From Haloplanus sp. CK5-1 (lineage in GTDB: Archaea > Halobacteriota > Halobacteria > Halobacteriales > Haloferacaceae), in assembly GCF_037201915.1 (NCBI RefSeq), contig NZ_CP147505.1, positions 1,488,001-1,552,000 of the forward strand: a DNA stretch of 64,000 nucleotides, read 5' to 3'. The notes beneath the pieces are model-generated. The model worked only from the letters and a program-made list of their open reading frames with translations, was not told the origin of the DNA and made no database searches. Of the stretch, positions 1 to 54,515 are shown piece after piece. The translations under genes and the position numbers were made by a program. Position 1 is the first letter of the stretch. Every line of letters begins with the position of its first letter.

Positions 1-1929
1 ACAGGTCGCACACGCTTCGAGATGATCCGTACAGAACGGGTCGTCACACAGGTCACAGCGGTCGGTGTGAGTCGGGCAAACGAGGCCGTCACACTTCATA
101 CAGACCGCCGAGTCGGTGGTACAGACGATCTCGTCACAGATTCGACACTCACCACGGTCGGTCTCACAAATTTCCTGACCGCAGGTTCCACACGCCGCCA
201 AGTGTTGGGTCCCGAAGGAATCCGCACAGATCTCACACTCGTTGCTGTGCGTGTCACACAGCGCCTCACTGCAACCTGCGCAGTCGACAGCGTGGTCGGT
301 ACAGATCGTGTCCCCGCAGGTGCCACAGGTCGTGGAGTCCGTTGCACAGACGCTGCGGTCACAGGTGGCACACGTGGAGAGGTGGGCGCTCCCGAAGTGG
401 TTCATGCAAATTTCGCATTGCTCGACTGCTTCGGCACAATGATGCCCGCCACACCCGTCACAGGCGACGGCGTCGTCGTGACAGCGAGTATCACCGCACG
501 TCTCACAGGTCACTCGGTCGTCGGGACACAGTTCGACGTCACAGGCGGTACAGGACCGGAGATGGGTCTCACAGATCGTGTCCGTACACTCGTCACAGGT
601 GTCGGAGTGAGCGTCGCAGTGGAGGTCCCCGTCGACACGGCACCGGTGGAGGTGCGAGTCACCGTGGAACGTCCCACAACTGGCACACGCCTCACCGCAG
701 GCCAAACACGTCGCCTGCTCAGTCTTCGCACACGTTTCGGTGTGGCTCGTACACACCGCTCGGCCACACTCGTCGCAGACCGAGCCACATCGGTGACATT
801 CGACGCGACCGCACAACTCGCAGGCTGCGACCGGTGTCTCACAGTTCGGACAGCCGGTTTCACCGCACTCCGTACAGACGTTCAGACAGCCAGCACAGAC
901 GACGCTCCCACATGTGCACACTTGGGGCCGGGTCGTTCGATCGAACGAGGTCTCACACGTCGCACACCCGAATTCGATCGTTTCCCCCGTTGCAGGTGCA
1001 TATCGAGCCGACGCGGTCCCGGAGCGTTCACCGTCGCCGATCGAGAGTCTGAGGGTGCCGACATCGTGGGAGAGGAGCGTCATCCCGACGAGGGAGATGT
1101 TCACGGTGACGTCGTGTCGGTCGACCATGTCCTCGATCTCGTCCCGCTCGCGTTTGTCGAACGATTTCCGTCGTTGACGGAGCGCGGCACCGTGGAGTTC
1201 CTCACCGAGTTCGTCCCGCCGTTGGTCGTACAGCTCACTGATTTCCTCGGCCCGAGTTGCTGCGGCCTCGGTCGCTTCGTTTAGTAATTCGGCTGCATCG
1301 GCTTCGATACGCCGTTCGATTTCCTCGATGGCCGTGGCGTATCGCTGTTCAATCGTCTCAGCTGCTGGGTCGATGTCGGCCGGTTCGTGGGATCGGCTGA
1401 GCGAACTGGCGTGTGCCAGTAACCGGTCGGTGAGGGCTGGTTGGGGACTGCCGTTTGCAAGGTCGAGCGTGACGGTTTCGAACCGTTCTCGGTGAAACGA
1501 CGAGACACTCTCCATCTCGATCAAAAAATGGAACGCGACGGCGTCAGCGGTCTGTTCGGGGTCGAACTCCTCGATCGTTACTGTCGTTTCGGAGACGTCG
1601 AGCACGTCGGGCAGCGTAACCTGCATATCCGCCGCTGTGAGGTACAGTTTCCCGATCGAGATATCCTCTTTCACCAGTTCGAGTAACTGGTTGAACGCGA
1701 GGGAGCCGGGTTGAACGAGCAGTTCGTCACGACCCGGTTGCTGATCTTTCGGATCGAACACGACGGCGACGTCACGGGACTCGGCGAGATTCCGGAGCGG
1801 TTCCGGGAGTGTGACGTGCCACGAATCCGCGTCGCGTCTGTTGACGTCGCCGCCGTACGCTTCGATCGTCGTCGCAGTGAATCGACGGACCTCCAACCGA
1901 TTGAGCGTCCCGACGTCGTCGACGCTCAT
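1..1929 (-). CDS. Cysteine-array protein next to SNF2 helicase (C-terminus outside window)
   Basis: The reverse strand is open for 643 codons from an ATG at 1929 to the window edge, so the C-terminus is missing. Residues 1 to about 320 have no cysteine clusters and include a charged, probably coiled-coil stretch around 195-260. From about residue 320 the protein is an unbroken array of short zinc-finger-like units, mostly CxxC followed by C-x2-H/D and another CxxC (for example CDECGRAVCTSH, CDLCDDPFCTDH). The start overlaps the stop of the SNF2 helicase by four bases (ATGA), so the two are translationally coupled. I infer a zinc-binding scaffold or nucleic-acid/protein-binding partner of the helicase. 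I recognise no named family. Confidence 0.85.
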   Translation of the reverse strand, partial: MSVDDVGTLNRLEVRRFTATTIEAYGGDVNRRDADSWHVTLPEPLRNLAESRDVAVVFDPKDQQPGRDELLVQPGSLAFNQLLELVKEDISIGKLYLTAADMQVTLPDVLDVSETTVTIEEFDPEQTADAVAFHFLIEMESVSSFHRERFETVTLDLANGSPQPALTDRLLAHASSLSRSHEPADIDPAAETIEQRYATAIEEIERRIEADAAELLNEATEAAATRAEEISELYDQRRDELGEELHGAALRQRRKSFDKRERDEIEDMVDRHDVTVNISLVGMTLLSHDVGTLRLSIGDGERSGTASARYAPATGETIEFGCATCETSFDRTTRPQVCTCGSVVCAGCLNVCTECGETGCPNCETPVAACELCGRVECHRCGSVCDECGRAVCTSHTETCAKTEQATCLACGEACASCGTFHGDSHLHRCRVDGDLHCDAHSDTCDECTDTICETHLRSCTACDVELCPDDRVTCETCGDTRCHDDAVACDGCGGHHCAEAVEQCEICMNHFGSAHLSTCATCDRSVCATDSTTCGTCGDTICTDHAVDCAGCSEALCDTHSNECEICADSFGTQHLAACGTCGQEICETDRGECRICDEIVCTTDSAVCMKCDGLVCPTHTDRCDLCDDPFCTDHLEACATC

Positions 1930-3255
1930 GCGCTCTCACCGAACTCGAAGCTGTCGAACACACCGCGGTTAAACTCGTCCATTTTCTCCGCGGCTTCGGT
2001 GTTTTCTTCGAGGTCAACCGCCATATCCTCGAAGTTGTTTTCGAGCTCGACTTTGGAATCGGCGTGGCGTAACTGCTCGAAGACTTCGCGTTCGAAGTCC
2101 GAGCCGGATTTCTCCATGCGTGAGAGGATGTCCCGGAGCCCACCGATCGATTGATTGAACAGATCGATCTTCCCGAATAGTTTGTTCAGGACGTGTTCCT
2201 CGATCGTGCCCTCCAACGCCATGTTGAACACGTGGACCTCACGCTCCTGCCCGATGCGGTCGACTCGCCCGATTCGCTGTTCGACCTTCATCGGGTTCCA
2301 CGGTAGGTCGTAGTTCACGAGGACGTTACAGAACTGCATGTTCCGTCCCTCACTGATCGAATCAGTGGCGACCATGATGCCGCCCTCGTCTTTGAACTGT
2401 GCGACTTTCCGCTCCTTTCCCTTGCTGGAAAGGTCCCCGTTGACGATGTGGACCGGCAGATCCAGCCCACGAATACTGTCGGCGATCGCGTCTTGGGTCG
2501 GACGGAACTGTGTGAACACGACCGCTCTGGTCGTTCCGATCTGGTCCTGAATCGTTTCGATGATGTGGCGCAGTCGTTCCTGCTTCGTCGTCCGATCGAT
2601 GTCGTCGACGATCGACTGGATGTCCCGCAACGCGTTCCGTTCGCTTCGCGAGAGAACCTTATCGTTGTCAGCCAGCCACCGGTCGATCGTCTTATCGACC
2701 GCGTACGGGCTCGAAACGACCTCTTTCTGCAACGTGAACAGGACGAGGTGCCGGGCGTCGTCGCTGGAGTAGTTCGACCGGACGTAGTCCGTAACGGCGT
2801 CGTACAACTCGGTTTCCGTCGTCGACGGTTCGAAGACGCTCGTGTGGACGTTCCGGTTCGTGAAGTCGATTTTCGTCTCTTCACGCCGGTTCCGAATCAT
2901 CACGCGATTGAGCTTCTCCTGTAGTTCTTCGCTCCGTTTGATCTGGGCGTCGTCGCTGTCGACGACGTACCGCTTATCGAACTGTTGCTTGGTGCCGAGC
3001 ATCCCGGGTCGGATGAGATCAATGATGTTGTAGAGGTCCGAGATGTCGTTTTGAATCGGTGTCGCAGTCGCGAAAAATGCCTCCCCGTAACTGAGTTCGT
3101 CGATCAGTTCGTACCGCATCGTGTCGGCGTTGCGGACGTAGTGTGCTTCGTCGAGGACGACGACGTCCCACCGCCGTGAGAGAACGTCGTCCCTGTTCGT
3201 CTTCGACTTGGCAGTGTCGACGCTCGCGATGATCTTGTCGTGCGCATCGAACCCG

Positions 3256-4700
3256 CATCTGTTCTAGTTTAGTGGCGGTCAAAGCCGAACTCACCTCGTT
3301 CAACCTGCTCACGTAACCGATCTCTGTGTGGATTTGGATTTCGTGCCACCCATAACAACAGCTCGTCCAGATCTGGCAGTTCGTAGCCCAACTCGACCAT
3401 GAGGTACAGCTGGATCAGATGAGCGTGGCGTTCGACGGCTAGCGAACAGCGACGGCGGGGGAGCCGCGACGCCGACGAGTCGGCGTCTTCGGCGGCTTCG
3501 GCCTCTCGTTGTCTTGCCTCAAGCGACCGTAACTCATCCACGATTACACGACTCATCAGCAGCGAAATTGCCGCCATGATGATCAGCGCCTCGATGATGT
3601 AGGCGTCGGTCGTGTTGATCTCATCCAAGCCGAACCGCGACTTCAGCTCCTTGAACAGCAGTTCGACCTCCCAGCGCGCCCGATAGAGCTGCGCAATATC
3701 GGGCGCGCTATAGTCGTCTTTGCCGAGATTCGTCAGGTAGAGGTGGTACTCTTCGGTCTCCTCGTTGCGCAGGCCGACCAGTCGAAACGTCCGGGTCGCG
3801 CTGGCGCCCGACCCTCCCTTGCGCTCGAATGAGAGCGTGATGCGGACGTCGATCTCCTGTCGCTGCAGGTCGTCGAGGACGGCCTGCAGCGACTCCCCTT
3901 CGAGTGGGATACTGTTGCCCCGCCACGTCCGCAGTTCTTCGACGATCTCGAAGTTCGCGTTTTCCTTGACGCGGGAGACGAACCAGCCGCCGTTCTGGTC
4001 GATGCGGTCGAACAGCCAGAAGTCGTAGAAGCCCAAATCGAGCAGTATGAGGGCGTCAGCTACCCACTCTCCGGTGGGTAGCTGACTCCGGTCGTGAGTA
4101 GTTCCGTCGGTTGTACGGAACCGGGTTGGAAGGCCGGTGGAGAGTGACTCTGTGAGGTGGAGCTTCAGTTCAGCCTGGTCTTCGCCAGTTGCTGCGTAGA
4201 TATCAGCGGCGTCCTGGTACAGCGAAACGATAGTTGCGTCGGCAATGAGGACGTCTCGAAAGCGTTCGAGACGTCCGTTCAACTCGGCTCGTCCGGTATC
4301 GAGATTTTCGATGGCGTCATCGAGAATCTCTCGAAGGAGTGCAACGAAACCCGGTTCGAACCAGTCGTGGAACGCCGCGTAAGAGAGTTCCTCGCAGTCA
4401 GCCATCTCGACGTAGCGTTCGAGAAATGCCTGGAGAGAGCGGTCTGATCCAGCGGCGAAACCGAACGAGAGCGTGTAGAATAGCGCAACGATGTCGAACT
4501 TCCGCTCTCGTTCGACAAGTGATGTTGCGCGAGCGCGCTCGCGCAACTCGTCGGAGGGAAACGCTCTTTGAATCCGGTCAACAATCACCGAATCCGGTGG
4601 GGTATAGGTCACACTTCCCACCGGATTCCTCAACCGGGTAGTTGCAACGATATCCAATCAACAGACGGCGGTTGGATTCTTCGCTAAACTAGAACGCATG
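3256..4700 (-). mobile_element. ISH8-like insertion sequence (IS4 family)
   Basis: The element is 1,445 bp, with imperfect terminal inverted repeats (CATCTGTTCTAGTTTAG on the left; the right end read inverted differs at two positions). It is flanked by a perfect 10-bp target duplication ATCGAACCCG at 3246-3255 and 4701-4710. The 10-bp duplication and the single transposase gene fit the ISH8 group. The clean duplication says this was a recent simple insertion into the SNF2 gene. Confidence 0.92.
3269..4657 (-). CDS. IS4-family (ISH8-like) DDE transposase
   Basis: A 462-residue transposase that fills its insertion sequence. The DDE catalytic core is visible: first Asp in LIADATIVSLY, second Asp in LILLDLGFYDF, and the family signature Y-(2)-R-(3)-E-(6)-K in YRARWEVELLFKELK. 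Length and signature match the ISH8 group. The protein appears intact, so the element may still move. Confidence 0.93.
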   Translation of the reverse strand: MDIVATTRLRNPVGSVTYTPPDSVIVDRIQRAFPSDELRERARATSLVERERKFDIVALFYTLSFGFAAGSDRSLQAFLERYVEMADCEELSYAAFHDWFEPGFVALLREILDDAIENLDTGRAELNGRLERFRDVLIADATIVSLYQDAADIYAATGEDQAELKLHLTESLSTGLPTRFRTTDGTTHDRSQLPTGEWVADALILLDLGFYDFWLFDRIDQNGGWFVSRVKENANFEIVEELRTWRGNSIPLEGESLQAVLDDLQRQEIDVRITLSFERKGGSGASATRTFRLVGLRNEETEEYHLYLTNLGKDDYSAPDIAQLYRARWEVELLFKELKSRFGLDEINTTDAYIIEALIIMAAISLLMSRVIVDELRSLEARQREAEAAEDADSSASRLPRRRCSLAVERHAHLIQLYLMVELGYELPDLDELLLWVARNPNPHRDRLREQVERGEFGFDRH

Positions 4701-5345
4701 ATCGAACCCGTAAAAATCCTCGTCGTAGTTACAAACGAAATCCAGTCCGAATTTCTCTTTCAGTTCCTTCTGCCATTGTGGGGCTAGCTGTGCAGGGGTC
4801 AGGATGAGGAAACTGTCTCGGGTGTCGCGGAAATCCATCTCCTTGAGGACCATCCCAACCTCGATGGTCTTCCCGAGTCCGACTTCGTCGGCGAACAAGG
4901 CCCCGCCGCTCATCTTGAACAGTGCGCGGTGGGCGGCCTGCAGTTGGTGGTCCAGCAGTTTGATCTGGTCTTTGATCTCCTCAACAGAGAGTAACTCCTG
5001 TTGCCCTTGCGCGATTTCGAACTCACGTGCGTGGACGTTGAGGAGATGCCCCGTCACGTTTGCAGTGTCGGTAGAAAGTGCGTCTACAGCGACCGACGGA
5101 TCGTCGACGGAATACGATAGCTCCGGAGCGATTCCGGAGTCCGACACCTCTTGAGACATCGATACTCTTCAATCTGGTACGAAGATAATAAACATCCCGT
5201 TGCCATTCCATGACCTGATAATCGAACCAATAATAATTTGACATGTGCTCGAGTACGTGGTCACTCCTCAAGCCCGTCGCCAGACATATATCTCTCGCTC
5301 TGAATCCATCATAAAACGGTCCCCTCTGACCGCCACCAGTTACCG

Positions 5346-6230
5346 ATGACAATAAATTACGATCCCGGAGAGAAGTGGACCGAGCATTATCGTGGCTATC
5401 GACTCCGGACGAACCCGGACGGTGATGTCTGGTGGCAGGCATACCAGGGAACCGACCGATTGTACTTGGAGCCGACCCCCGAAGGGCTCGTTGAGTCACT
5501 ACTCGAACTCAAACGCCTTGGCGGCCGGATCCGGATAACCGAAGGTAATGACGTACTCACACGGGCCGAAGAGGACGACGGATACGAAACGTATTGGATC
5601 GGGACGTTCGACCTCGACGGGGAGTTGGTCCCGCCGGAGGACCCGGAGTTCAGTGTTCCGGTACAGCCTGATGGGTTGGCTCCCGGTGACTTCTGGCCGA
5701 GCGTATACGACGGTGCAAAATACTCGTTCGGCCCCGGTGTCGAACGAATCTGGTGGGATAACCCACAGACCCACAAGCGACATCCAGTCCGGAAATCGCT
5801 CTCGGGGGACTTGGTGACGACGCTGTCGCGGTACAAGCCACAGGGTGGGTCCTTGCGAGTCACACCGTGGAACGACGTCCTGACACTCGTGGACCTAGAC
5901 AAACTCCCGTCAGAAACCAGGACCGAATTCGAGTCACTCCCGCGGGTGGTGAAGAACCTCATCGCGCTTCGGCGCGACCGTGGCGGCGTCCAGAAGCTTC
6001 CGATTTACGCCGGGAAAGCTGAGACCACGCCGTTCGCTGTCGACGATCCGCCATCGCTGACCGATCCATTCGACGACGGGAGCGGCGGGGTCGATAGCTG
6101 GCTCGACTCGCTCGGTGACACGTCGCAGACGGATGTCGAGAACCACACTGTTGGTGGCTCGGATGCTGACGCAGACCCAGCAGATGAGTACGACACCGAT
6201 ATTCCAGACGATGATCCCTCCGAGTGGTGA
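5346..6230 (+). CDS. Unknown protein with an internal duplication, paired with SF2 helicase
   Basis: A 294-residue acidic soluble protein that I do not recognise. The N-terminal two thirds hold two related segments, each ending in a GG-(R/S)-(I/L)-R-(I/V)-T-x2-NDVLT motif (about residues 15-75 and 135-180). Both contain WW or similar aromatic pairs shortly before. The C-terminal 80 residues are Asp/Gly-rich and look disordered. The stop overlaps or abuts the start of the 963-residue helicase, so it is the first gene of that operon and probably its partner. The 186-bp gap to the divergent SNF2 gene probably holds both promoters. Confidence 0.75.
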   Translation: MTINYDPGEKWTEHYRGYRLRTNPDGDVWWQAYQGTDRLYLEPTPEGLVESLLELKRLGGRIRITEGNDVLTRAEEDDGYETYWIGTFDLDGELVPPEDPEFSVPVQPDGLAPGDFWPSVYDGAKYSFGPGVERIWWDNPQTHKRHPVRKSLSGDLVTTLSRYKPQGGSLRVTPWNDVLTLVDLDKLPSETRTEFESLPRVVKNLIALRRDRGGVQKLPIYAGKAETTPFAVDDPPSLTDPFDDGSGGVDSWLDSLGDTSQTDVENHTVGGSDADADPADEYDTDIPDDDPSEW

Positions 6231-6232
6231 GT

Positions 6233-9115
6233 ATGGGGCGACGTTTTCCACCACCGCTGTTCGGTGTCGAAGAACCCGAAGCCAGAGCACGGTGCTTCGT
6301 CAACATTGCTATCGCCGCGACTGAACCTCTGGAGAAAGCGGAAGTCGTTCGTCGTGCTCGCTCACAATTACTGAAACCAGATGGAGAGCGATACTCAGAG
6401 CAGTATCTTCGCCGTATCGTCTCGACGTACATCCAACTAGGAGTCCTCCGACAAACGAAGGAGGGAGTCACGGTGTACGAGTTCGCCCACGACTGGCGAT
6501 CGGGGGAGTTGGGGTTCGAGACGTTCCTCTGGTACGGCGTCAAGCAATCGTGGGCGCTCGAAGGCTCCTTCCCCGAAGGTATCGAGGGGTTGTACAGCAT
6601 TCACCACGTCGTCAAACAGGCTGGTGAGCCGGTACAGCGAGGGACGATCCGGACGCGTCTCGGTGAACAGTACGGGTACGAGTTCAACGAGGAGGGCATC
6701 CGCGGGTATCCGCTGCTGTTAGAGAGTATGGGGGCATTGCACGACGGTGAGAACGGGTACGAAACGACGACTCCCGAGACGTTCAGTGAGCGGTTCCGAA
6801 ACGCTGATATTCTGTGGCAGTTCGAGCAGTGGCTCAAGCGGGAAGGCCCGAACACAACCCCACCCTCAGAGCGAGTGAAACGTGACCTCGCGAAGTACTA
6901 TATGTACCGTGAATCCGGTGGGCACGGCCAACACCGGCAACTTCTCGATACAGCTAGGCGAGAGTACCTCGACGAGGCGGTGCTGACGGATACGTCGGAA
7001 CCGAGGCTCAGACGATCGGCGACGTACGTCGAACAACGGCGGCATCGACGAAACCTCCGAGACACGATCTGTACGGAATTCGAGTCGTTCTCCCCACAAG
7101 ATCTCGCCGGTCTATCGACGGCGATACTCGAACAGATCGCCGAGGCCGACACCGAGGCCGCAGCGATTCGAGCGAAAACAAGCGCCGGGAGCGGGTTCTC
7201 ACGGGCCACGCTTGAAGCGATGGTGCCAGATCGACCGGCCTACACGTTCCCCGAAGGGTTCGACCTGTACGACTGGCAGACGGAAGCCGCGACGCGGTGG
7301 TTCTCCGACGAGACGACTGGCCCCGAACGCGGTATCGCACAGGTGGTGACCGGTGCCGGGAAAACCGTGATGGCACTCGAAGTCGTGCGTCAGTGGCTCG
7401 CCGATCACCCGGATGGAGTGGTGACGGTCGTGGTCCCGACGAAGGTACTCATGCACCAGTGGCTCGAAGAACTCGTCGAAACACTCGGTGTCCCCGCCGG
7501 CGACATCGGCTGGCTCGGCGATGGACACAAAGACGGATTCGAGGACGGATATCGGGTACTCGTTTCGATCGTCAATTCTGCGGTCAAAGACGGGTCGCTG
7601 TCACAGACGGTACGAAACGCCGACGTCACCGACCATCTGCTCATCGCCGACGAATGTCACCGCTATACTGGCGACACCTTCTCCAACGTGTTCGACTGTC
7701 ACAGAACAGCTAGCTTAGGACTCTCTGCGACCCCACTGTCCGACCCGACCGCTGATGAACGGAGCCCTGAAGACGAACTGTTGGTTGCGAACCTCGGCGA
7801 GATCTACTACGACCTATCGTACGACGAAGGCCAACGCCGTGGTCTCATTCCCGACTTCCGAATCAATTACGTCGGGTTCGAACTCACTGACGACGAGCGG
7901 ATGGCGTACCAGCGGTTAACCGATGCCGTGGTTGACGCCGTCACCGATATCGAGCAGCAATACCAGAACCGGTTATACGAGCTCAGTGGGAGCTTCTCAC
8001 GGAAACTACAGATCATTCGGAACGATGCCGACAGAGCAACCCCAGCGATTTCGGATTATTTCAAATACACACAGGAGCGACGGGAACTGGTGGCTGACGC
8101 GGTCGCTCGGCAAGCCGTAACGCTAGACCTGTTGGAAGATAGTGTGGACAACGAGCAGAAAGCGATCGTGTTCCAGGAGCGAATCGAGCAGTTGGAGCGG
8201 ATGGTCGCCCCGAAAGAGACACGCGGCCGTGACGCACGGACTGGCGAACTTTCGGAGACGGATGTCGACCGCGCGCAACTCTACGACCGCTACCCGGCAT
8301 TGAAACGAATCGACGAGAAACTAGAAGAGTTGTTCTTTACGGCGAGTTACCGCCCCGTCATGTATCATTCCGGACACCGAAACACGGTGTGGAACGACTT
8401 TGCCATCGAATGGTTCAGCGACGACGGGTTTGCAAACGTCATGCTGAGCGTCAAGGCGCTTATCGAAGGTGTCGACGTGCCGTCCGCTGATCTCGGCATC
8501 GTCCGTGTCTCTTCCGGGAGCGTCAGACAACGCATCCAAACGCTCGGCCGTATCCTTCGGACCGGCGAGGATCCAGACAAGCGAGCAGAGTTGTTTGTGC
8601 TCTACGCACGTGACACGGTTGATGCAAATATCTTCGAGCGATACGACTGGCGGAACGAACTTTCACAGGCTGAGGTCCGTCATCTCACGTGGGAAACCGA
8701 AGAGGATGCGATCACCGGTCATCTCAGATCTGCAACTGACGGCGAAATTCCTGATCCTCCGACGAGTCAAACCATCCCGGACCCTGCGGAGTTGGAACAG
8801 GGCGATCCGTACCCGGGGCCGAGCGACGGATTCGAGTTCAGTGTCGATGCTGAAGGCCGTCCGTTCACTAGTACACGAGACAGTCGAACGTTCATCGAGT
8901 CGGCGAGCTACCAAGACGCCGCCTCGTTCATCCAGGAGGCGAAAGGCGGTGGGAGCGTGACAGTCAACGAGGCAAACCATGCAGTGACCTATCTTGGCGA
9001 CTCGCTCGTCTTCGTCGGTGTTGTCGATGACCCCACAGAGATCGAATATGAACAAAATACCGCCGGTGGGTTAACCGACGACTCGGGGTTCTCTTTAGAT
9101 GACATGGATAGGTAG
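6233..9115 (+). CDS. Large XPB/UvsW-like superfamily-2 helicase
   Basis: About 960 residues. A 350-residue N-terminal region without clear motifs (possibly winged-helix and adaptor segments) precedes a DExH helicase core: YDWQTEAATRWF, Walker A VTGAGKT (about residue 371), DECH box (about 472), LSATP (about 497), then ALIEGVDVPSADLG and RQRIQTLGRILRTGED as motifs V and VI (about 765-780). The core order and DECH box resemble XPB/Rad25 and UvsW-type helicases. I chose ATG 6233; GTG codons at 6224 and 6227 overlap the previous stop and are possible. The pairing with an unknown small protein and a downstream nuclease is typical of defence loci, but no known system is matched exactly. Confidence 0.88.
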   Translation: MGRRFPPPLFGVEEPEARARCFVNIAIAATEPLEKAEVVRRARSQLLKPDGERYSEQYLRRIVSTYIQLGVLRQTKEGVTVYEFAHDWRSGELGFETFLWYGVKQSWALEGSFPEGIEGLYSIHHVVKQAGEPVQRGTIRTRLGEQYGYEFNEEGIRGYPLLLESMGALHDGENGYETTTPETFSERFRNADILWQFEQWLKREGPNTTPPSERVKRDLAKYYMYRESGGHGQHRQLLDTARREYLDEAVLTDTSEPRLRRSATYVEQRRHRRNLRDTICTEFESFSPQDLAGLSTAILEQIAEADTEAAAIRAKTSAGSGFSRATLEAMVPDRPAYTFPEGFDLYDWQTEAATRWFSDETTGPERGIAQVVTGAGKTVMALEVVRQWLADHPDGVVTVVVPTKVLMHQWLEELVETLGVPAGDIGWLGDGHKDGFEDGYRVLVSIVNSAVKDGSLSQTVRNADVTDHLLIADECHRYTGDTFSNVFDCHRTASLGLSATPLSDPTADERSPEDELLVANLGEIYYDLSYDEGQRRGLIPDFRINYVGFELTDDERMAYQRLTDAVVDAVTDIEQQYQNRLYELSGSFSRKLQIIRNDADRATPAISDYFKYTQERRELVADAVARQAVTLDLLEDSVDNEQKAIVFQERIEQLERMVAPKETRGRDARTGELSETDVDRAQLYDRYPALKRIDEKLEELFFTASYRPVMYHSGHRNTVWNDFAIEWFSDDGFANVMLSVKALIEGVDVPSADLGIVRVSSGSVRQRIQTLGRILRTGEDPDKRAELFVLYARDTVDANIFERYDWRNELSQAEVRHLTWETEEDAITGHLRSATDGEIPDPPTSQTIPDPAELEQGDPYPGPSDGFEFSVDAEGRPFTSTRDSRTFIESASYQDAASFIQEAKGGGSVTVNEANHAVTYLGDSLVFVGVVDDPTEIEYEQNTAGGLTDDSGFSLDDMDR

Positions 9116-9759: not shown

Positions 9760-10803
9760 ATGACACACGCGTTTCGGGTCGGGCAGCAATACCGCGACAC
9801 TGGTAGTTACCGCAACCCGGGGGACCAGTTCCTGCGGTGGATCCGTGGCCCGCTCGACACTGGCATCAAGAATACCGGCGGCATCCGTGATCTCGGTGCG
9901 GACCGGTCTGATATCCCTGCTGCGCTCGTGCTCGTCTCCAACGACAGCGGCATCTCCCAGCACGACGATCCGTGGGAGGACATGCTCGCCGTCAACGCCG
10001 GCTACATCAGTTACTGGGGCGACGCAAAGGCCTCAAAGCCCTACGATAAATCCGCGCAGAACCAGAAAATCAAGGCCGCCTTCGACAACGCTGCAGCCGG
10101 TCGGCGCGAAGACGTCCCGCCCGTCCTCGTGTTCCGCAAACCCGAATCAGGCGTCGTCGAATTCTGCGGGCTCTGCGTCCCCGACCACTTCGAAGTCCAC
10201 GCATACCAGGCCGATGACGGGACCCAGGTCCCGAATTACCAGTTCCACTTCTCGATCCTCAACACCAACGCCGTACCCGTCACGTGGCTGCACGACCGCG
10301 CCCAGCAGAACGACGACAGCGAGGCACCGTCCGTCTGGCAGCAGTGGCTCCAGACCGGAGAGGTGGCCCAGTGGCCGACCGGAGAATCCCTTGATTCGAG
10401 TGGCCGTATTCGCCGCTACGAAACATCTGAAATCACCGTGAGCGACGCCTTCCGGGCGGACATACTCGACCGCTACGACCACGCGTGTACCCTGACCGGA
10501 ATTCGAGAAGATGAACTGCTTGATCTCGCACATATCCTCCCACGAAATCAACACCCAGAACTCGCCGAACATCCGGAAAACGTTCTCGTATTGAACTCAC
10601 TGCACCACCGCGCGTTCGACGCCGCGCTGTTTACCATTGACAGCGACTACCGCATCCAAGCAAGTCCCGCATTCGACCCAGCCCATCCGTTCCTCCGCGA
10701 AACGATTCTTGACCGGCAAGGCGAACAACTCTCGTTCCCACCCACTGTAGAGATCCGTCCATCCTTCCTCGAAGAACTCAACACTGGCCTCTCGTGGTTA
10801 TAG
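9760..10803 (+). CDS. HNH endonuclease with SRA-like reader domain (probable type IV restriction enzyme)
   Basis: A 347-residue protein. Residues 1 to about 185 resemble the SRA-like N-terminal domain of AspBHI/MspJI-type modification-dependent enzymes: a conserved stretch with YWGDAK, then VPPVLVFRK and VVEFCGLCVP. Residues 225-310 are an HNH_2-type nuclease: CTLTGI, DLAHILPRNQHPE, ENVLVLNSLHHRAFD, with the catalytic His in LAHILP and the second His pair in LHHRAFD. I infer cleavage of DNA bearing modified cytosine or another base modification. Reader assignment is by remembered similarity and less sure than the HNH domain. It sits directly downstream of the helicase operon, in line with a defence island. 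Confidence 0.8.
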   Translation: MTHAFRVGQQYRDTGSYRNPGDQFLRWIRGPLDTGIKNTGGIRDLGADRSDIPAALVLVSNDSGISQHDDPWEDMLAVNAGYISYWGDAKASKPYDKSAQNQKIKAAFDNAAAGRREDVPPVLVFRKPESGVVEFCGLCVPDHFEVHAYQADDGTQVPNYQFHFSILNTNAVPVTWLHDRAQQNDDSEAPSVWQQWLQTGEVAQWPTGESLDSSGRIRRYETSEITVSDAFRADILDRYDHACTLTGIREDELLDLAHILPRNQHPELAEHPENVLVLNSLHHRAFDAALFTIDSDYRIQASPAFDPAHPFLRETILDRQGEQLSFPPTVEIRPSFLEELNTGLSWL

Positions 10804-10885: not shown

Positions 10886-12607
10886 TCAGTCAAGACGTGA
10901 AATCGCCCATCCTGCTCGCTCGCGCACTGTCTCGTCCAGATCGTTCTCTTTCACTTCTACAAGCGTCTCGATAGGCACGCTCACGTACGCGTTCCCGATC
11001 AAGGAGCACACGTTCGCCCGGACCTCCGGGCTCGGATCCTCCAACGCGGCCTCCAACCGGTCCTGTTGTGCTCGAATCGCAGCGGGATCGACCTCACCTG
11101 CTCGCTGGAGCGCTATGGACGCGTTCACCCGCGCCTGAATATTGTTATCCTCCAACCGCGCGGCGATCTGATCAGCGTACTCGATCACGACCGTCGGGTG
11201 TTCCTGCGCGAGGTCACCAAGCAGCCCGATCGCATTATTTCGAACGCGTTTCGCGTCGGTGTCCAGTACCGTCACTAGCTCGTCCACGATAGGCTCAGCG
11301 GCGTCCGGGTAGTCCGACGCAATCTTCCCGAGCGCCGCTAACGCATTCGTTTGCACCGTCTCATCCTCACTCTGCATCGCCTCGATCAAGGCAGCACTCG
11401 CGGGGAACACTTCTTCGGGATGGGCTTCTGCAACGCAGGAGAGTGCGTACACCGCGTAACTCTGTGTTGCCGCTGTCTCTGCGGTCGCCGCTGCTTCCAG
11501 GGCGGGAACTGCATCGAGAACGCTCGCCGGACCAGCGTCCGCCAACTCCATCAAGCAGTGCGTCGCGGCTGCCTGGTACATTGAGTCCTGACTCGCGTAC
11601 GCTGACAGGTCTCTCACGTGATCGTTCAGCACCGCTGGGTCGTCTGTCGCGGCTTCGTGAAGTGCTTGGAGCGCCGCTCGGTCGAGCGCCGACGGCTCGT
11701 CAGCTAATAGCTCGAACGTTGCATCGACAGCGAGTGCCCGAACGTCGTCGCAGTGCTCTAACGTGATTATCGCCAGAAGGAGCGCTTCATGGCGATCCAC
11801 ATTCGCCGGGTCCGCGGCCGCATCAGACAGCATCGTTTGGAGCAGTTCCTCATCGACCGACGCAGGGTCCTCTTCAAGTTGCTTTCGCACCGCCGCGAAC
11901 GCCGCCTCCGCGAGTGGGTCAGCGAGGCGTTCGTACGAGACAAGATGCAACGCCTCAATCTCGGGGAGTCGAACGGAGAACCGTTCGTCGTTTCCGACAG
12001 TCTCGAACCAGAACGCTGGTGGGCCTTTCAACGGCGTCATCGACGGACGATCCGGTTCGAAATGTGTGACGAGATGCGTCTTCTGTTTACCATCCGTCCG
12101 GTGTGTGAGCTCGAATACGCATCCCTCTTCGAGGATGTCTCGAACTGCGTCACCAGATTCAAACCCGCCATCCGGACTCAGATCAGTCGAAGGCGGTGCT
12201 GACAGTCCGAGTTCTCCTTGCCGGACATACTCAACGAAATCCCACGCGTGGTAGTGCTCCCAGCCATCGACATGCCCCAAATCGAGATCATCAACAGCGA
12301 TGTACCCCTCGGCGTCCGGGAACAACTCCGCAAGAATCCGGAGACGCTCCTCGCGTTCAGGCCACCACTCGTAGTACCCGTACTCGTCCTGTTCGCCGAG
12401 CGCATCAACGTGTCCGTCACGCTGCCGAATCGACTCCACCGTGCCCGGAATGTCAGCTTCCTCTACGAGATCCTGATTCCCGATCGCCCAGACTTCGTGA
12501 CCAGCCTTGTGTGCCCAGTACTGCACCCACTCCAACGGCACCGCTTCTCGCCGAGGATGCGGATTCACGTCTACCGTCCAGTCTCGGTCGAACGCCAACA
12601 CGTGCAT
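10886..12607 (-). CDS. HAD-like phosphatase domain fused to HEAT repeats
   Basis: A 573-residue protein. The N-terminus has the HAD motif I, DxDxT, as FDRDWTV (residues 6-12), with a DD pair in YIAVDDLDLG near 100. From about residue 235 to the end there are repeated two-helix HEAT-like units (for example QTNALAALGKIASDYP, RVRNNAIGLLGDLAQEHP). Function unknown; the HAD domain could be a phosphatase and the HEAT array a protein-binding surface. The start codon overlaps the upstream ADP-ribosylglycohydrolase stop by one base (TAATG), so the two are translated together and probably act on linked substrates. Confidence 0.82.
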   Translation of the reverse strand: MHVLAFDRDWTVDVNPHPRREAVPLEWVQYWAHKAGHEVWAIGNQDLVEEADIPGTVESIRQRDGHVDALGEQDEYGYYEWWPEREERLRILAELFPDAEGYIAVDDLDLGHVDGWEHYHAWDFVEYVRQGELGLSAPPSTDLSPDGGFESGDAVRDILEEGCVFELTHRTDGKQKTHLVTHFEPDRPSMTPLKGPPAFWFETVGNDERFSVRLPEIEALHLVSYERLADPLAEAAFAAVRKQLEEDPASVDEELLQTMLSDAAADPANVDRHEALLLAIITLEHCDDVRALAVDATFELLADEPSALDRAALQALHEAATDDPAVLNDHVRDLSAYASQDSMYQAAATHCLMELADAGPASVLDAVPALEAAATAETAATQSYAVYALSCVAEAHPEEVFPASAALIEAMQSEDETVQTNALAALGKIASDYPDAAEPIVDELVTVLDTDAKRVRNNAIGLLGDLAQEHPTVVIEYADQIAARLEDNNIQARVNASIALQRAGEVDPAAIRAQQDRLEAALEDPSPEVRANVCSLIGNAYVSVPIETLVEVKENDLDETVRERAGWAISRLD

Positions 12608-13515
12608 TACGCCACCTCCACGAGTTGCTCGGCCAGCGTTTCGAGTTCGTCGGTCTCATCGATAGCACCCAGCCATCGATCCGGAAGCTGTGACGCCCCA
12701 AACCGCGCCCCAGCGACTGCACCCGTAATCGCGCCAATCGTGTCCGTATCACCGCCGCGGTTCACGGCCGTCACAATCGCTTCCTCAGCACTGTCTGCGA
12801 ATAACCCGTCGTGAAGTGCCGTCTGCAGCGAATGCACGACGTATCCCGACGTCTCCAGCTTGCTGGGAGAGTCACCATGAGCGAGCGGTCGGAGTGCCGC
12901 CACGAGCTCATCAGATGCGTCCGCACCGACGTAGTCAAGTGCGTCCTGCAACGGCGTATCCGCATCGTCAAGGAGGCCAGCCACTGTGAGATTCAGGATC
13001 GCACAGCCACCAGTACATCGTGGGTCAGCGTGCGTGATCTGCGAGGACTGTCGACTTACCTCGACGAGTCGGTCCCAGTCATTCACGTATGGGATGACGA
13101 GTGGTGGACACCGCATCACGCTCCCGTTACCTGCGTTCTGACCTTCTCGGCTCTGCTCCCACACATGCTGGCCTGCCTCGTCCCATTGGTCGCCGTGTTT
13201 GAGACGGCTGAGCGACCGCATCGTCATCCGGCCGATATCGAACGGCCCGCTATCGTACCACGCGACGAACCGATCAGCGACATCCGTCGGATCGAACGTT
13301 TGGTATTCTACCAGGCTTCGTGCGATGCACAGCGCCTGCTCGGTGTCGTCCGTGATCGTCCCAGCGGGCTGGTTCCACGTTCCGTGCCCGACCATCTCGT
13401 CGAGCCGTCCGTGCTCAGCACTGATTTCCGACACAGACGTAAACTCGACTGGCCGGCCAAGCGCATCCCCACACGCTAGCCCAAGGAGGACACCACGTGC
13501 CCGATCCAAATCCAT
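12607..13515 (-). CDS. ADP-ribosylglycohydrolase (DraG/ARH family)
   Basis: A 302-residue protein with the whole family signature: GLACGDALG near the start, the metal-binding TDDTE (about 55), GNGSVMR (about 130), HADPRC (about 160) and GGDTDTIGAITGAVAGA (about 255). Family members remove ADP-ribose from protein side chains or cleave related ADP-ribosyl compounds using a dinuclear metal centre bound by the Asp residues seen here. All ligand motifs are present, so it should be active. It is the first gene of a two-gene unit with the HAD-HEAT protein. Confidence 0.92.
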   Translation of the reverse strand: MDLDRARGVLLGLACGDALGRPVEFTSVSEISAEHGRLDEMVGHGTWNQPAGTITDDTEQALCIARSLVEYQTFDPTDVADRFVAWYDSGPFDIGRMTMRSLSRLKHGDQWDEAGQHVWEQSREGQNAGNGSVMRCPPLVIPYVNDWDRLVEVSRQSSQITHADPRCTGGCAILNLTVAGLLDDADTPLQDALDYVGADASDELVAALRPLAHGDSPSKLETSGYVVHSLQTALHDGLFADSAEEAIVTAVNRGGDTDTIGAITGAVAGARFGASQLPDRWLGAIDETDELETLAEQLVEVA

Positions 13516-13558: not shown

Positions 13559-13828
13559 TCACTCGCTAGGGTTCGTTCCGGTACGGAGGTTTTCTCGATA
13601 CTCGGCCCACGCTTGATACATTTCGATCCGTTCTTTCTCCGTCATCGTGTCGTGCTTGTCCGCGTCGTAGAACGGGAGTTCGTCCTTTTCGGGCATCTTC
13701 ATGAGTCTCCCGAGCGGGTAGAGTTGCTGGTAGTAATTCTCCAGCACCCATTCTTCGCCGTGTTCGTCGACAGCTTGCTGGATGTACGAGGCGGCTTCCG
13801 GATACTCATCGGCGAGTGTCTCAGTCAT
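13559..13828 (-). CDS. Small hypothetical acidic protein
   Basis: An 89-residue charged protein, no cysteine pairs or membrane segment, rich in aromatic residues (WVLENYYQQLYPLGRLMKMPEKDELPFYD). It lies 43 bases upstream of the ADP-ribosylglycohydrolase gene on the same strand and may share its transcript. I do not recognise the family. Confidence 0.6.
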   Translation of the reverse strand: MTETLADEYPEAASYIQQAVDEHGEEWVLENYYQQLYPLGRLMKMPEKDELPFYDADKHDTMTEKERIEMYQAWAEYRENLRTGTNPSE

Positions 13829-13879: not shown

Positions 13880-14236
13880 TCAGGCGTTCGTGAATTCAGT
13901 GAGCGAGTGGGTTGGACTGTCTCGGTTCCACTTGCCGATCTGGATGAGCTCGAACGTGTCTACGGGCTCGTCAAGTTCGTTAGCGAGCTGGGTCTGAACT
14001 GCAGTGGAGAGGCTGTCGACCGGGATTGCGGTGAGTGCGTGCTGGGTGAGGACGTAACTGGTTGCAAGACTCGTCGGGGCGACGACGATGACCTCTGATC
14101 CATCGACGTCGTCGAGCGCGATCTGGGCATCTCGGTACTGGAGGACTGCTGCATCCAGTTCATCGACGGGGAAGAGGCAGCCAGCAGCACCGTATTCGAT
14201 ACTCGCCCCCGCCGATTCAAAATGCCCTTTAAGCAT
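13880..14236 (-). CDS. Small hypothetical protein
   Basis: About 118 residues from ATG 14236 (a TTG at 14242 would add two). A compact soluble protein with alternating hydrophobic strands (SEVIVVAPTSLATSYVLTQHAL) and an acidic C-terminal half. It is co-directional with the next genes down to 10886 and separated by about 50 bases. No family recognised. Confidence 0.55.
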   Translation of the reverse strand: MLKGHFESAGASIEYGAAGCLFPVDELDAAVLQYRDAQIALDDVDGSEVIVVAPTSLATSYVLTQHALTAIPVDSLSTAVQTQLANELDEPVDTFELIQIGKWNRDSPTHSLTEFTNA

Positions 14237-14350
14237 AATCAAATAGTGATATATGTCCTATAGACATTAATTTTGTGGTGGATTGGCACTTCCCCCCCCC
14301 CTTCACTCTTCACCCTCATTTTGACTACCCTCGGCACCTCACCGATCGAT

Positions 14351-15184
14351 ATGCCCCGCGAGCTCTACGACTGCACCGCAGCCGAACTCGCTACCCACTC
14401 TGTCGAGCACCTCCAACATGATACGCTACCAAGCACCGCTGCCGAGTGGCTCGCTGAGAACGGCTACGACGCCGCCCCGGTCTACACGAACGACGACCCA
14501 ATCGGATTCATCCACAAAGACGACGTCACAACCAACGACGACGGCAACACCCTCGACGACCACCTCACCCCGCTGACCATCGACTACATGATCAGCGGCG
14601 ACACCTCGTTCACCGACGTCCTGTCCGCACTCATTGAGAACCCAGTCTACTTCCTCGGCGGCCCCAACCACGTCACCGGCATTCTCACCCGCGCCGATCT
14701 CAACACCGCCCCAGCACGCATTTACCTCTTCGACCGCATCACCTACCTCGAAGAACACCTCCGCGAACTCATCCTCGACAAGAAACCAGACTGGAAAACC
14801 ACGCCCGTCACCGCAGACGAACTCGACGACATCCAAGACCGGTACGAAGACGCACAAGCCGCCAACGTCGCGTTAGCCGAACTCCACTACGCACAATTCT
14901 CCACGCTCGAAGCCATCGTCACCAGCGTCGAAGCCTGCTGGCAAGCGTGCAGCTTCTCGACGAAAGGCGGTGCAGACTCCCAACTTCACGACGTCACTGA
15001 CCTGCGCAACGACGTCGCCCACGCCAACCTCCTCGTCGAGAACACTGACAGCAACGAGTTTCTCAGCAGCGGCCGCACCACAGAAAACCTGTATGACACT
15101 CTCGAAACCATCAACCAAGTCCTCACGAACTTGCAGGAGGCCGGATACGCCCCAGAAACAGTAGAGGCACACCGCACGGTGTAA
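14351..15184 (+). CDS. CBS-pair protein with a HEPN-type RNase motif
   Basis: A 277-residue protein. ATG 14351 (MPRELYDCTAAEL) is chosen because the open frame upstream is low-complexity. Residues 5-120 form two CBS-like units (AAEWLAENGYDAAPVYTNDDPIGFIHKDDV; TSFTDVLSALIENPVYFLGG..VTGILTRADL), which usually sense adenine nucleotides. The helical C-terminal half carries RNDVAH (about residues 219-224), the classic RNxxxH active-site motif of HEPN ribonucleases, in DLRNDVAHANLL. I infer a nucleotide-gated RNase. No separate antitoxin gene is obvious next to it. Confidence 0.78.
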   Translation: MPRELYDCTAAELATHSVEHLQHDTLPSTAAEWLAENGYDAAPVYTNDDPIGFIHKDDVTTNDDGNTLDDHLTPLTIDYMISGDTSFTDVLSALIENPVYFLGGPNHVTGILTRADLNTAPARIYLFDRITYLEEHLRELILDKKPDWKTTPVTADELDDIQDRYEDAQAANVALAELHYAQFSTLEAIVTSVEACWQACSFSTKGGADSQLHDVTDLRNDVAHANLLVENTDSNEFLSSGRTTENLYDTLETINQVLTNLQEAGYAPETVEAHRTV

Positions 15185-17227: not shown

Positions 17228-17719
17228 TTAGAAGTAATTGCTTATTTTAGGAACAGAGAGTTTGTCGAGAGCGGTGTCGATCGCTGTTGTTAGCTCATCA
17301 AGCGAGTCAAAAAAGCGGTTGCTCAGAGCCTTTTGCAGCTGTCTCCAGCATTCTTCGACTGGATTCAACTCCGGTGAATACGAGGGTAACGTCACGAAGG
17401 CGAGGTCGTCACGGGCCGCTAGGTCCGTGACGGCCGACGCCTGGAAATACGGCGCTCCGTCCAACACGACGATCAAGTCATCTTCGAATTCTTTACATAA
17501 TGCTAAAATGAAATGCTTTGCGTGTTCGGCCGTGACGTACTCGGTAAATCGAGAGAAGAAGCGATCACCGTCCTCGGTGATCGCGCCCAGCAGACACGTC
17601 CAATCACGTTGGCCTGAAAGCTCGACCGAGGGCCGCGTGCCGCGCGGAAACCACGCGGCACGCGGCTCAACTTGCACGGATTTCTTGGTTTGGTCAATAC
17701 AAACTACGGTGGCGTCCAT
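17228..17719 (-). CDS. IS630 transposase, catalytic part (orfB, copy A)
   Basis: Encodes the DDE domain: Asp in VVCIDQTKKS, Asp in VVLDGAPYF and Glu in NPVEECWRQL. It is in the -1 frame relative to orfA and overlaps its end by 16 bases; a run of seven A (CTC AAA AAA AGC in orfA) is the likely slip site, giving a fused protein. Copy A has Leu (VVLDG) where copy B has Ser. Confidence 0.88.
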   Translation of the reverse strand: MDATVVCIDQTKKSVQVEPRAAWFPRGTRPSVELSGQRDWTCLLGAITEDGDRFFSRFTEYVTAEHAKHFILALCKEFEDDLIVVLDGAPYFQASAVTDLAARDDLAFVTLPSYSPELNPVEECWRQLQKALSNRFFDSLDELTTAIDTALDKLSVPKISNYF

Positions 17720-18240
17720 TTCCCGCCGCTTTTTTTGAGCTCGTCGTGGAACGCTTCTTGCTCGTCTTCGTCAGCCTCGGCGGCTGAACGGCGTGGTTTT
17801 TGATAGCTCAATCCCGCTTCTTTCAGCAACCGCCGACAACTCGGGAGTGAATACTCAACGCCGTACGTTTCTTCGAGATACTCTTGGGCAAGCGCCGGCG
17901 TCCACGCCGGCGCGTCGATCCCGACCTTTTCAGGTGGATCGTGAACGGTTTCCTCGAATTCTTCTTGCTGTAATTCTGAAAGTTTACGTTTTCTCCCAGT
18001 TCGTTTATCGTCAGACACGGCTTGCTCAAGCGACTCGTCGGTGTCGAGTCGCTTGAGCCAGCTGTAGATGGTCCGTCGCTGAACGTCGTACCACTCAGCT
18101 AGCTCGGTCTGCGTTACACCATTCTTGTACGCACTTGCCGCTAAGAGCCGTTGTGTCGGCTTCTTTTCGTCCACGTTGTCGAGAGCGTCTTGCAATTCCT
18201 CGACGGAGATCTCGTCGAGATGATCCACTACCACCCACAA
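17704..18240 (-). CDS. IS630 transposase, DNA-binding part (orfA, copy A)
   Basis: A 178-residue protein with a helix-turn-helix (GVTQTELAEWYDVQRRTIYSW) followed by a second winged-helix region (LAQEYLEETYGVEYSLPSCRRLL). It begins with GTG or an internal ATG-free start, and ends after the frameshift site. Identical in sequence to copy B. Confidence 0.86.
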   Translation of the reverse strand: MWVVVDHLDEISVEELQDALDNVDEKKPTQRLLAASAYKNGVTQTELAEWYDVQRRTIYSWLKRLDTDESLEQAVSDDKRTGRKRKLSELQQEEFEETVHDPPEKVGIDAPAWTPALAQEYLEETYGVEYSLPSCRRLLKEAGLSYQKPRRSAAEADEDEQEAFHDELKKSGGKWTPP

Positions 18241-18725: not shown

Positions 18726-19298
18726 TTAGTTCAAATCTTTACCGGTGAGATACGGCCAGATGTTCGGTTCGGTGATCGCGCTCAATCCTCGTGGAATGCA
18801 TTCTTTCAGCGTCGAGAGATCTGGCATAAGGCGATACTTGAACCACTCTTGCAATTGGTCCCAGCACCCTTCGACAGCGTTCAATTCGGGAAGTTTCGAC
18901 GGGAAGTACCACACTTCGAGATCATCCCCTCGCACGCACGAGACCGAACTGTCTCCGACAGTTTCGGTCTCGCGCTCACCACTCACGTGCTCCCACAGAT
19001 CCCTCGCGTAGAAGTAACCCGCTCGATCCAGAAACACCACTAACTCCTCACCGAACTTGTCTTTCAGCGCTTCTAACAGCCGAATCCCGTGGTTCCGTGT
19101 GAGATTCTCTTCTGTCCAGCAGAAGAAGCTGTCACCGTCGTCGGTGACAGCGCCCAGCACCGTCACTGAATCCCACGCTGTTGCAACCTCTATTGTCGGG
19201 TTTGAGCCAATTGGGTAGAAGCCACGTCGCTGAACAGTTCCGACGTGCTTGGTGAACTGATCGACAACAACGACAGTTTTCTCGGTTAGTTCGGGCCG
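18726..19298 (-). CDS. IS630-like transposase, catalytic part (orfB, copy F)
   Basis: The frame runs from the slip site near 19299 with no start codon needed: EKTVVVVDQFTKHVG (first Asp), VVFLDRAGYFYA (second Asp), LNAVEGCWDQL (Glu). An ATG-initiated internal start exists at 19166 but would lose the first Asp, so expression as an orfA-orfB fusion is expected. Confidence 0.82.
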   Translation of the reverse strand, partial: RPELTEKTVVVVDQFTKHVGTVQRRGFYPIGSNPTIEVATAWDSVTVLGAVTDDGDSFFCWTEENLTRNHGIRLLEALKDKFGEELVVFLDRAGYFYARDLWEHVSGERETETVGDSSVSCVRGDDLEVWYFPSKLPELNAVEGCWDQLQEWFKYRLMPDLSTLKECIPRGLSAITEPNIWPYLTGKDLN

Positions 19299-19801
19299 TT
19301 TTTTTCGACTGTCTCCTGAAACTCAGTTTTCTCTTCAGGGTCGGCTTCATGATGTTGAGGCCGTGCTGTCCGCAAGGACAGCCCGGCCTCTTTCAACAAG
19401 TCATACGCGTAGGTTTCGTGGTATTCGACGCCGTATTCCTCTTTGGCGTGATGAAGCAAGAGTTTCGCTGACCACGCTTGCTGGTCGTATCCGAGTTCGG
19501 TCGGCGGCTGTTGCAACTGCTCGAACAGTCGCTCACGATCTTTGCCCTCGATTTTTGCTGGACCTCCTGGTCGAGGAGCGTCGTAAGGTGCCTGCTCGAT
19601 CGGTTCTTCCTTGAACCGATCGAGCCAGTTGCGAATCGTTTTCTCGACAACACCGTGGCGGTCAGCCAGTGTATCCAGTTGATCGCCCTTCTTGCGCCCG
19701 ATCGCCGCGAGAACACGTTCTCGCGGCTTCCCTTCGTCGATCTGGTCCTTGAGATCGTAGAGTTCTTCGAGCGTGATATCGTCAAGCCGACCCATTACCA
19801 A
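19286..19801 (-). CDS. IS630-like transposase, DNA-binding part (orfA, copy F)
   Basis: 171 residues with a helix-turn-helix (TLADRHGVVEKTIRNWLDRF) and a second winged-helix segment. It ends just after seven consecutive A residues (coding-strand positions 19305-19299), the likely -1 frameshift site joining it to orfB. Confidence 0.82.
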   Translation of the reverse strand: MVMGRLDDITLEELYDLKDQIDEGKPRERVLAAIGRKKGDQLDTLADRHGVVEKTIRNWLDRFKEEPIEQAPYDAPRPGGPAKIEGKDRERLFEQLQQPPTELGYDQQAWSAKLLLHHAKEEYGVEYHETYAYDLLKEAGLSLRTARPQHHEADPEEKTEFQETVEKNGPN

Positions 19802-20337: not shown

Positions 20338-20874
20338 TTGTGGGTGGTAGTGGATCATCTCGACGAGATCTCCGTCGAGGAATTGCAAGACGCTCTCGAC
20401 AACGTGGACGAAAAGAAGCCGACACAACGGCTCTTAGCGGCAAGTGCGTACAAGAATGGTGTAACGCAGACCGAGCTAGCTGAGTGGTACGACGTTCAGC
20501 GACGGACCATCTACAGCTGGCTCAAGCGACTCGACACCGACGAGTCGCTTGAGCAAGCCGTGTCTGACGATAAACGAACTGGGAGAAAACGTAAACTTTC
20601 AGAATTACAGCAAGAAGAATTCGAGGAAACCGTTCACGATCCACCTGAAAAGGTCGGGATCGACGCGCCGGCGTGGACGCCGGCGCTTGCCCAAGAGTAT
20701 CTCGAAGAAACGTACGGCGTTGAGTATTCACTCCCGAGTTGTCGGCGGTTGCTGAAAGAAGCGGGATTGAGCTATCAAAAACCACGCCGTTCAGCCGCCG
20801 AGGCTGACGAAGACGAGCAAGAAGCGTTCCACGACGAGCTCAAAAAAAGCGGCGGGAAATGGACGCCACCGTAG
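20338..20874 (+). CDS. IS630 transposase, DNA-binding part (orfA, copy B)
   Basis: Same 178-residue protein as in copy A, with helix-turn-helix at about residues 42-62. The end overlaps orfB by 16 bases; seven A at 20842-20848 form the probable -1 slip site. Confidence 0.86.
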   Translation: MWVVVDHLDEISVEELQDALDNVDEKKPTQRLLAASAYKNGVTQTELAEWYDVQRRTIYSWLKRLDTDESLEQAVSDDKRTGRKRKLSELQQEEFEETVHDPPEKVGIDAPAWTPALAQEYLEETYGVEYSLPSCRRLLKEAGLSYQKPRRSAAEADEDEQEAFHDELKKSGGKWTPP

Positions 20875-21350
20875 TTTGTATTGACCAAACCAAGAAATCC
20901 GTGCAAGTTGAGCCGCGTGCCGCGTGGTTTCCGCGCGGCACGCGGCCCTCGGTCGAGCTTTCAGGCCAACGTGATTGGACGTGTCTGCTGGGCGCGATCA
21001 CCGAGGACGGTGATCGCTTCTTCTCTCGATTTACCGAGTACGTCACGGCCGAACACGCAAAGCATTTCATTTTAGCATTATGTAAAGAATTCGAAGATGA
21101 CTTGATCGTCGTGTCGGACGGAGCGCCGTATTTCCAGGCGTCGGCCGTCACGGACCTAGCGGCCCGTGACGACCTCGCCTTCGTGACGTTACCCTCGTAT
21201 TCACCGGAGTTGAATCCAGTCGAAGAATGCTGGAGACAGCTGCAAAAGGCTCTGAGCAACCGCTTTTTTGACTCGCTTGATGAGCTAACAACAGCGATCG
21301 ACACCGCTCTCGACAAACTCTCTGTTCCTAAAGTAAGCAATTACTTCTAA
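20859..21350 (+). CDS. IS630 transposase, catalytic part (orfB, copy B)
   Basis: 163 residues with Asp (VCIDQTKKS), Asp (VVSDGAPYF) and Glu (NPVEECWRQL). It differs from copy A at two residues that I can see (Ser for Leu before DGAPY, Val for Ile near the C-terminus), so both copies look functional. Confidence 0.88.
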   Translation: MDATVVCIDQTKKSVQVEPRAAWFPRGTRPSVELSGQRDWTCLLGAITEDGDRFFSRFTEYVTAEHAKHFILALCKEFEDDLIVVSDGAPYFQASAVTDLAARDDLAFVTLPSYSPELNPVEECWRQLQKALSNRFFDSLDELTTAIDTALDKLSVPKVSNYF

Positions 21351-54182: not shown

Positions 54183-54513
54183 CGGTGATGTATACTGCTT
54201 CCTCGTCGGTCACGTTCTCCGGGATTCGGGCCATGTTCGCGTCGGCCTCATTCACATGGGCGTATTCGGGAAACGTCCCGTCTTTGACGTTCGCGTACTT
54301 CCACCCGCCGAGAGCCTGGTTCGACTGCGAGGGATGACCATCCTGGGCAGCAAGCGAACCCTAGTCTGGAGTGATCGCGCCGGCGGCGACTCGGTCACCC
54401 GCCTCATATTCATCCACGTCGTCTCCTACTGCGTCCACGATCCCGACCACTTCGTGCCCGAGCGTCAGACTCTCCCGCTCGCCGATAGCGCCGTGAAGGG
54501 TATGCACGTCTGA
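54183..54513 (-). pseudogene. Zinc alcohol dehydrogenase fragment
   Basis: Reads SDVHTLHGAIGERESLTLGHEVVGIVD, DRVAAGAITPD, TAG, GHPSQSNQALGGWKYANVKDGTF, EYAHVNEADANMARIP. These are the consecutive conserved segments of medium-chain alcohol dehydrogenases (GHE zinc ligands, GDRV, HVNDADAN). A Trp codon has become TAG, the N-terminus is cut by the IS6 copy E and the C-terminus by the transposase piece. Confidence 0.8.
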
Positions 54514-54515
54514 CG

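Follow-up and report, generated by a model that had tools for sequence, protein, structure and literature searches.

A haloarchaeal CBS-HEPN protein with a conserved divergent partner gene, distantly related to the anti-phage protein DS-11

The window analyzed here, a stretch of 64,000 nucleotides from Haloplanus sp. CK5-1, contains a gene (14351..15184, +; ATG at 14351, stop at 15184) that encodes a protein of 277 amino acids, hereafter P0001, consisting of a pair of CBS domains followed by a HEPN domain. The ATG at 14351 is conserved among the homologues, so the upstream TTG at 14273 is unnecessary as a start. The gene is present in a single copy in its own genome and is under purifying selection, with a dN/dS of 0.23 in the comparison with its closest relative. 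Next to it, in divergent orientation, lies the gene for a 118 amino acid protein, p120 (13880..14236, -; read from the ATG at 14236). The two start codons are separated by an intergenic region of 114 bp (14237..14350) with conserved AATATATG and CATTAA..TTGTGGTG blocks, which are found in close relatives only and hint at shared regulation of the two genes. Further along the minus strand are the genes for a small conserved protein, p89 (13559..13828, -), which had no match in Pfam, PADLOC or PHROG, and for a DraG-like ADP-ribosylglycohydrolase (12607..13515, -; Pfam PF03747, E-value 2.6e-79). Both are frequent neighbors of p120, and the order p120, p89, ADP-ribosylglycohydrolase recurs in the nearest relatives.

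The left 54 kb of the window have a GC content of 0.56, as against 0.69 at the right end, and contain several transposase-like genes as well as a PbeA-like helicase (6224-9115, +) and an AspBHI-like (AspBHI-N) methyl-directed restriction-type enzyme with an HNH domain (9760-10803, +). This part of the window looks like a genomic island that carries defense genes. At about 54000-56000, the GC content climbs from about 0.52-0.56 to 0.69, perhaps marking the island boundary. A two-ORF transposase-like gene is present in two almost identical copies in inverted orientation (17228-18240, -, and 20338-21350, +), which enclose a short stretch with another transposase-like gene pair (18726-19801). Near the left end, the C-terminal part of an SNF2-type helicase (1926-4657, -) is immediately preceded, on the same strand, by a transposase-like gene, and this helicase is perhaps disrupted.

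The central proposal of the initial annotation, that the gene at 14351-15184 encodes CBS domains fused to a HEPN motif, is borne out by the Pfam CBS match, the AlphaFold2 model and the match to the HEPN fold. The CBS pair occupies residues 8-118, approximately (14372..14704, +). The first CBS domain is recognized by Pfam PF00571 over residues 12-60, with a score of 26.2 bits against a cut-off of 24 (E-value 1e-5), and the second is visible in the structure model only. The model of the complete protein, built with AlphaFold2 from the family alignment (pLDDT 89.3, pTM 0.84), aligned with solved CBS pairs over residues 6-134 with Z-scores of 8-9.4. A PDB sequence search with P0001 alone gave no match of note, and the same search with the family profile retrieved essentially CBS entries only.

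The HEPN domain spans approximately residues 119-263 (14705..15139, +). When the whole model was submitted to VIA-align, a realignment of the candidates produced by Foldseek, the CBS domain filled the list with CBS-containing entries, and the C-terminal domain was therefore modeled alone (AlphaFold2, pLDDT 85.7). Foldseek with this domain-alone model yielded no significant match, to HEPN or any other fold. In the VIA-align comparison, the 12 best PDB entries were all HEPN proteins, with Z-scores of 6.6-8.6, values that are modest for a helical domain when they lie at 7-8.6. The best match was PbAbiF (Z 8.6 over 134 residues at 3.6 A), and AF_0298 (Z 8.0), the MntA-HEPN toxins and Csm6 also belonged to the top 12; unrelated helical proteins came after the HEPN entries, at Z 6.1 and below. 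Among the relatives, Pfam HEPN families were matched weakly, RiboL-PSP-HEPN being detected in 8 of 28 (best E-value 0.0013). The structure prediction that had been suggested as a check, made here for the monomer, thus returned HEPN topology, and a fold lacking it, which the initial annotation named as the outcome that would speak against the assignment, is not what the 12 top VIA-align entries and the weak Pfam matches indicate. The fold assignment rests on VIA-align, the motif and the family profiles taken together.

The catalytic-type motif, RNDVAH, extends from R219 to H224 (15005..15022, +), exactly where it had been placed originally. In the structural model, the long helix 205-223 stops at RNxxxH, the expected helix end for a HEPN motif. 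When the residues of P0001 are shuffled, 1.8% of the resulting sequences contain an RNxxxH string, so that the presence of the motif alone could be due to chance; its invariance among the homologues could not. In the alignment of 28 homologues, which reaches down to 29% identity, R219, N220, V222, A223 and H224 never vary, and positions beside these residues, such as 221 and 225, are variable. If P0001 behaves like other members of the HEPN superfamily, two protomers would share a composite active site and cleave RNA.

The closest functionally characterized protein of this kind is DS-11, which on its own constitutes a CBS-HEPN anti-phage system in E. coli; both the Y157A substitution, at a predicted adenine contact, and mutations of the HEPN catalytic residues abolish this defense (PMC13092281). 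DS-11, which originates from DefensePredictor, is represented by the NCBIfam equivalog model NF053863 (DS11_antiphage), with a curated cut-off of 260 bits. P0001 scored 20.4 bits against this model (E-value 2.2e-4), below the cut-off, and 24 of the 28 homologues matched it similarly weakly. The alignment starts with residue 16 of P0001 opposite model position 83, leaving positions 1-82 unmatched, as the haloarchaeal protein begins at the CBS pair. Because both the score and the N-terminal region fail, P0001 falls outside the DS-11 equivalog. An E. coli protein from a fetched locus scored 404.9 bits, over the cut-off; its Tyr157 sits in the sequence HDYSQLPV in the first CBS domain and, judging from this match, the protein presumably shares the published DS-11 numbering. 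In the alignment of P0001 with this protein, Tyr39 (14465..14467, +; within NGYDAAPV) lies opposite Tyr157, and R219, N220 and H224 align with the HEPN catalytic residues.

All 28 homologues carry an aromatic residue at the position of Tyr39 (25 tyrosines, 3 phenylalanines). Control by adenine nucleotides, as proposed in the initial annotation, thereby acquires a plausible site at the CBS pair, given that the corresponding Y157 of DS-11 is needed for defense in E. coli (PMC13092281). Profile comparison of the P0001 family with DS-11-like haloarchaeal proteins aligned 210 columns across both domains with 97.6% probability. In the phylogenetic tree, the P0001 clade is separated from the DS-11-like clade with support of 98/99, and the branches of a bacterial sequence (L164) and of group D are long, so that their placement in the same tree is unsure. 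P0001 and DS-11 thus agree in the order of their domains, with the CBS pair ahead of a HEPN domain that carries RNxxxH, and in the aromatic residue at the adenine-contacting position, and differ in that P0001 belongs to a separate clade and lacks the N-terminal extension of about 110 residues. Sequence comparison accordingly places the P0001 clade as a distant, separate branch of the CBS-HEPN kind to which DS-11 belongs.

The initial annotation was aware of no published system made up of this protein alone, a statement that can be upheld in neither of its parts. DS-11 is such a one-protein system (PMC13092281), and Anantharaman et al. had first drawn attention to CBS-HEPN fusions in 2013 (PMC3710099), proposing for them ligand (nucleotide)-controlled RNA cleavage or stability. 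The CBS-HEPN and CBS-HD-HEPN fusions in the relevant passage of that paper display the same combination as P0001 and are bacterial; the passage describes no partner gene, unlike what we find in the P0001 clade. Here, the CBS-HEPN protein is accompanied by the conserved divergent p120, in contrast to the one-protein DS-11, and this partner argues for a two-gene form rather than a one-protein system.

Several other systems bear comparison. Residues 117-230 of P0001, in its C-terminal half, match the PADLOC candidate PDC-M34B weakly (E-value 0.0024), as do 23 of the 28 homologues (best E-value 8.7e-7). The partner component of PDC-M34 had no match in p120, p89, the ADP-ribosylglycohydrolase, a HEAT protein or the flanking genes, and we found no mention of PDC-M34 in the literature searched. 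As in the CARF-HEPN proteins Csm6 and Csx1, a nucleotide-sensing type of domain precedes the HEPN RNase domain, in agreement with the Csm6 fold match, but in P0001 this domain is a CBS pair rather than CARF, and no CRISPR genes were recognized among the neighbors searched. PbAbiF, to which the HEPN domain aligned best in structure, is a HEPN protein with a noncoding RNA antitoxin, whereas the conserved neighbor of P0001 is a protein-coding gene. AbiF is not known to contain a CBS pair. The locus also resembles type II toxin-antitoxin systems, in that the small partner gene is kept whenever the CBS-HEPN gene is intact (35 of 35 genomes).

At a permissive threshold, 68 of the 391 genomes sampled from the class contain homologues of P0001, and an intact CBS-HEPN gene of the P0001 clade is present in 35 of the 391. 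Additional homologues reside on several haloarchaeal plasmids, giving a patchy distribution across chromosomes and plasmids. No relatives were found in viral contigs and phage records, and P0001 is therefore not obviously virus-borne. Among bacteria, where sampling was confined to one phylum, a relative was present in 1 of 245 genomes. One apparent relative (L010) was discarded, the match lying in a signal-peptidase-like protein, as identified by eye.

The partner gene shows a markedly asymmetric pattern. Every one of the 35 sampled genomes in which a CBS-HEPN gene of the P0001 clade is intact possesses p120, and 28 genomes possess p120 without an intact CBS-HEPN gene of this clade, counts for which the Fisher test ignores phylogeny and linkage. 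At 35 of 37 intact loci, p120 is adjacent; the remaining two loci have it at distances of 2 and 8 kb, and a genome that does not belong to the sample (L004) has it about 12.6 kb away. In one genome (G313), the adjacent p120 is broken, though the genome has a second, intact copy. The divergent pair is retained in subclades where the CBS-HEPN proteins are only 45-48% identical and the p120 proteins 36-47% identical, and also in a third subclade in which p120 is recognizable by profile only. Several genomes that lack an intact CBS-HEPN gene retain a fragment of it beside p120. On the plasmid pHTIA of Halorhabdus tiamatea (L158:3983-4669, 4666-5772), an IS630-family element, ISHti6, removes the 3' end of the CBS-HEPN gene, and the divergent p120-like gene next to it is intact. 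At two loci (L085 and L089), p120 adjoins a DS-11-like CBS-HEPN gene from the other clade; with the more distant CBS-HEPN groups, no p120 was seen. The p120 family is a previously unreported partner, and the protein could be assigned to no known family. Its identification with a known antitoxin or regulator finds no support in Pfam, PADLOC, PHROG or PDB.

Haloarchaea encode additional CBS-HEPN groups. DS-11-like proteins occur at loci L080-L089 and on pHMA155 of Haloarcula marismortui (L156:6001-6768), with scores of about 95-120 bits for the best of them, under the cut-off of 260; at L085 and L089, these genes adjoin p89 and the ADP-ribosylglycohydrolase in addition to p120. Proteins of about 480-500 amino acids (L044-L050; for example, L045:4314-5822, +, and L050:4270-5682, +) carry a methyltransferase-like domain in addition to the CBS pair and HEPN domain, an arrangement of which we found no description in the literature consulted. 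Their N-terminal domain matches PADLOC mad2 (E-value 2.5e-14) and Pfam Eco57I (E-value 3e-4). In another haloarchaeal group (L051-L056 and L059), the CBS region is poorly recognizable, the HEPN-like motif is RNxVMHAN, and the placement in the tree is unsure. At three loci (L131, L139 and L145), p120 without a CBS-HEPN gene is situated beside PIN-type toxin-antitoxin-like pairs, as judged by eye.

By analogy with DS-11, the most likely role of P0001 would be that of an abortive infection-type effector of haloarchaeal genomic islands. P0001 would dimerize through its CBS and HEPN domains, and the HEPN active site would be held or switched by an adenine-containing ligand that occupies the CBS pair and contacts Y39. 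If this ligand changes during infection, cleavage of host or viral RNA might be released, such that growth stops. We propose that p120 serves either to restrain the RNase or to license its trigger, since in this sample p120 is kept without this RNase, and the RNase is never present without p120. We consider it probable, with some reserve, that P0001 is a CBS-gated HEPN RNase that halts growth upon a virus-induced change in an adenine ligand under the restraint or license of p120.

The asymmetry that leads us to this proposal would be expected of a restrained toxin and also of a CBS-HEPN gene that is optional cargo of a p120 island, and the association of p120 may reflect linkage within a shared island. 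Such an arrangement, in which p120, p89 and the ADP-ribosylglycohydrolase constitute the real conserved unit and CBS-HEPN is exchangeable edge cargo with no functional link to p120, would account for the 28 genomes in which p120 occurs and an intact CBS-HEPN of the P0001 clade is lacking, for the PIN-type toxin-antitoxin, restriction, metabolic or transporter-like genes that adjoin p120 in such genomes, and for the order of the three genes, which is often kept. We nevertheless hold it to be doubtful, given that p120 stays by CBS-HEPN across the 41-48% subclades, where p89 and the ADP-ribosylglycohydrolase are mostly absent next door, and is also found beside the DS-11-like CBS-HEPN of a separate clade at L085 and L089.

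Another explanation keeps the CBS-controlled HEPN RNase and assigns it to the control of RNA or ribosomes under stress or starvation (energy charge) instead of virus defense. It draws on the sensing of adenine nucleotides by CBS pairs, the binding of archaeal CBS proteins to ribosomes (SriA-D entries) and the nucleotide-controlled RNA stability put forward for CBS-HEPN by Anantharaman et al. (PMC3710099). The patchy presence (intact in 35 of 391 genomes), frequent decay, and location on plasmids and in islands with restriction genes make it unlikely, as does kinship with defense proteins, of which DS-11 is validated and PDC-M34B a candidate. Finally, the HEPN domain could be catalytically silent and bind RNA or nucleotides only, as inactive HEPN families exist according to the same source (PMC3710099), but R219, N220 and H224 are invariant in 28 sequences in which positions 221 and 225 vary, and we regard a silent domain as highly improbable.

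Returning to the CBS-gated RNase, the wider formulation that we advance tentatively is that of a haloarchaeal two-gene immune module, in which p120 would control a CBS-gated HEPN RNase, effectors from two clades would be interchangeable, and a virus-caused change in adenine nucleotides would be sensed. Defense by CBS-HEPN proteins in bacteria was demonstrated only recently, and the haloarchaeal proteins of this type are varied, comprising several distinct groups, one of them fused to a methyltransferase-like domain. The analysis points to p120, a previously unnoticed protein family, as a candidate regulator or antitoxin, and the diverged archaeal branch, with its conserved partner, would provide an independent model for identifying the trigger ligand.
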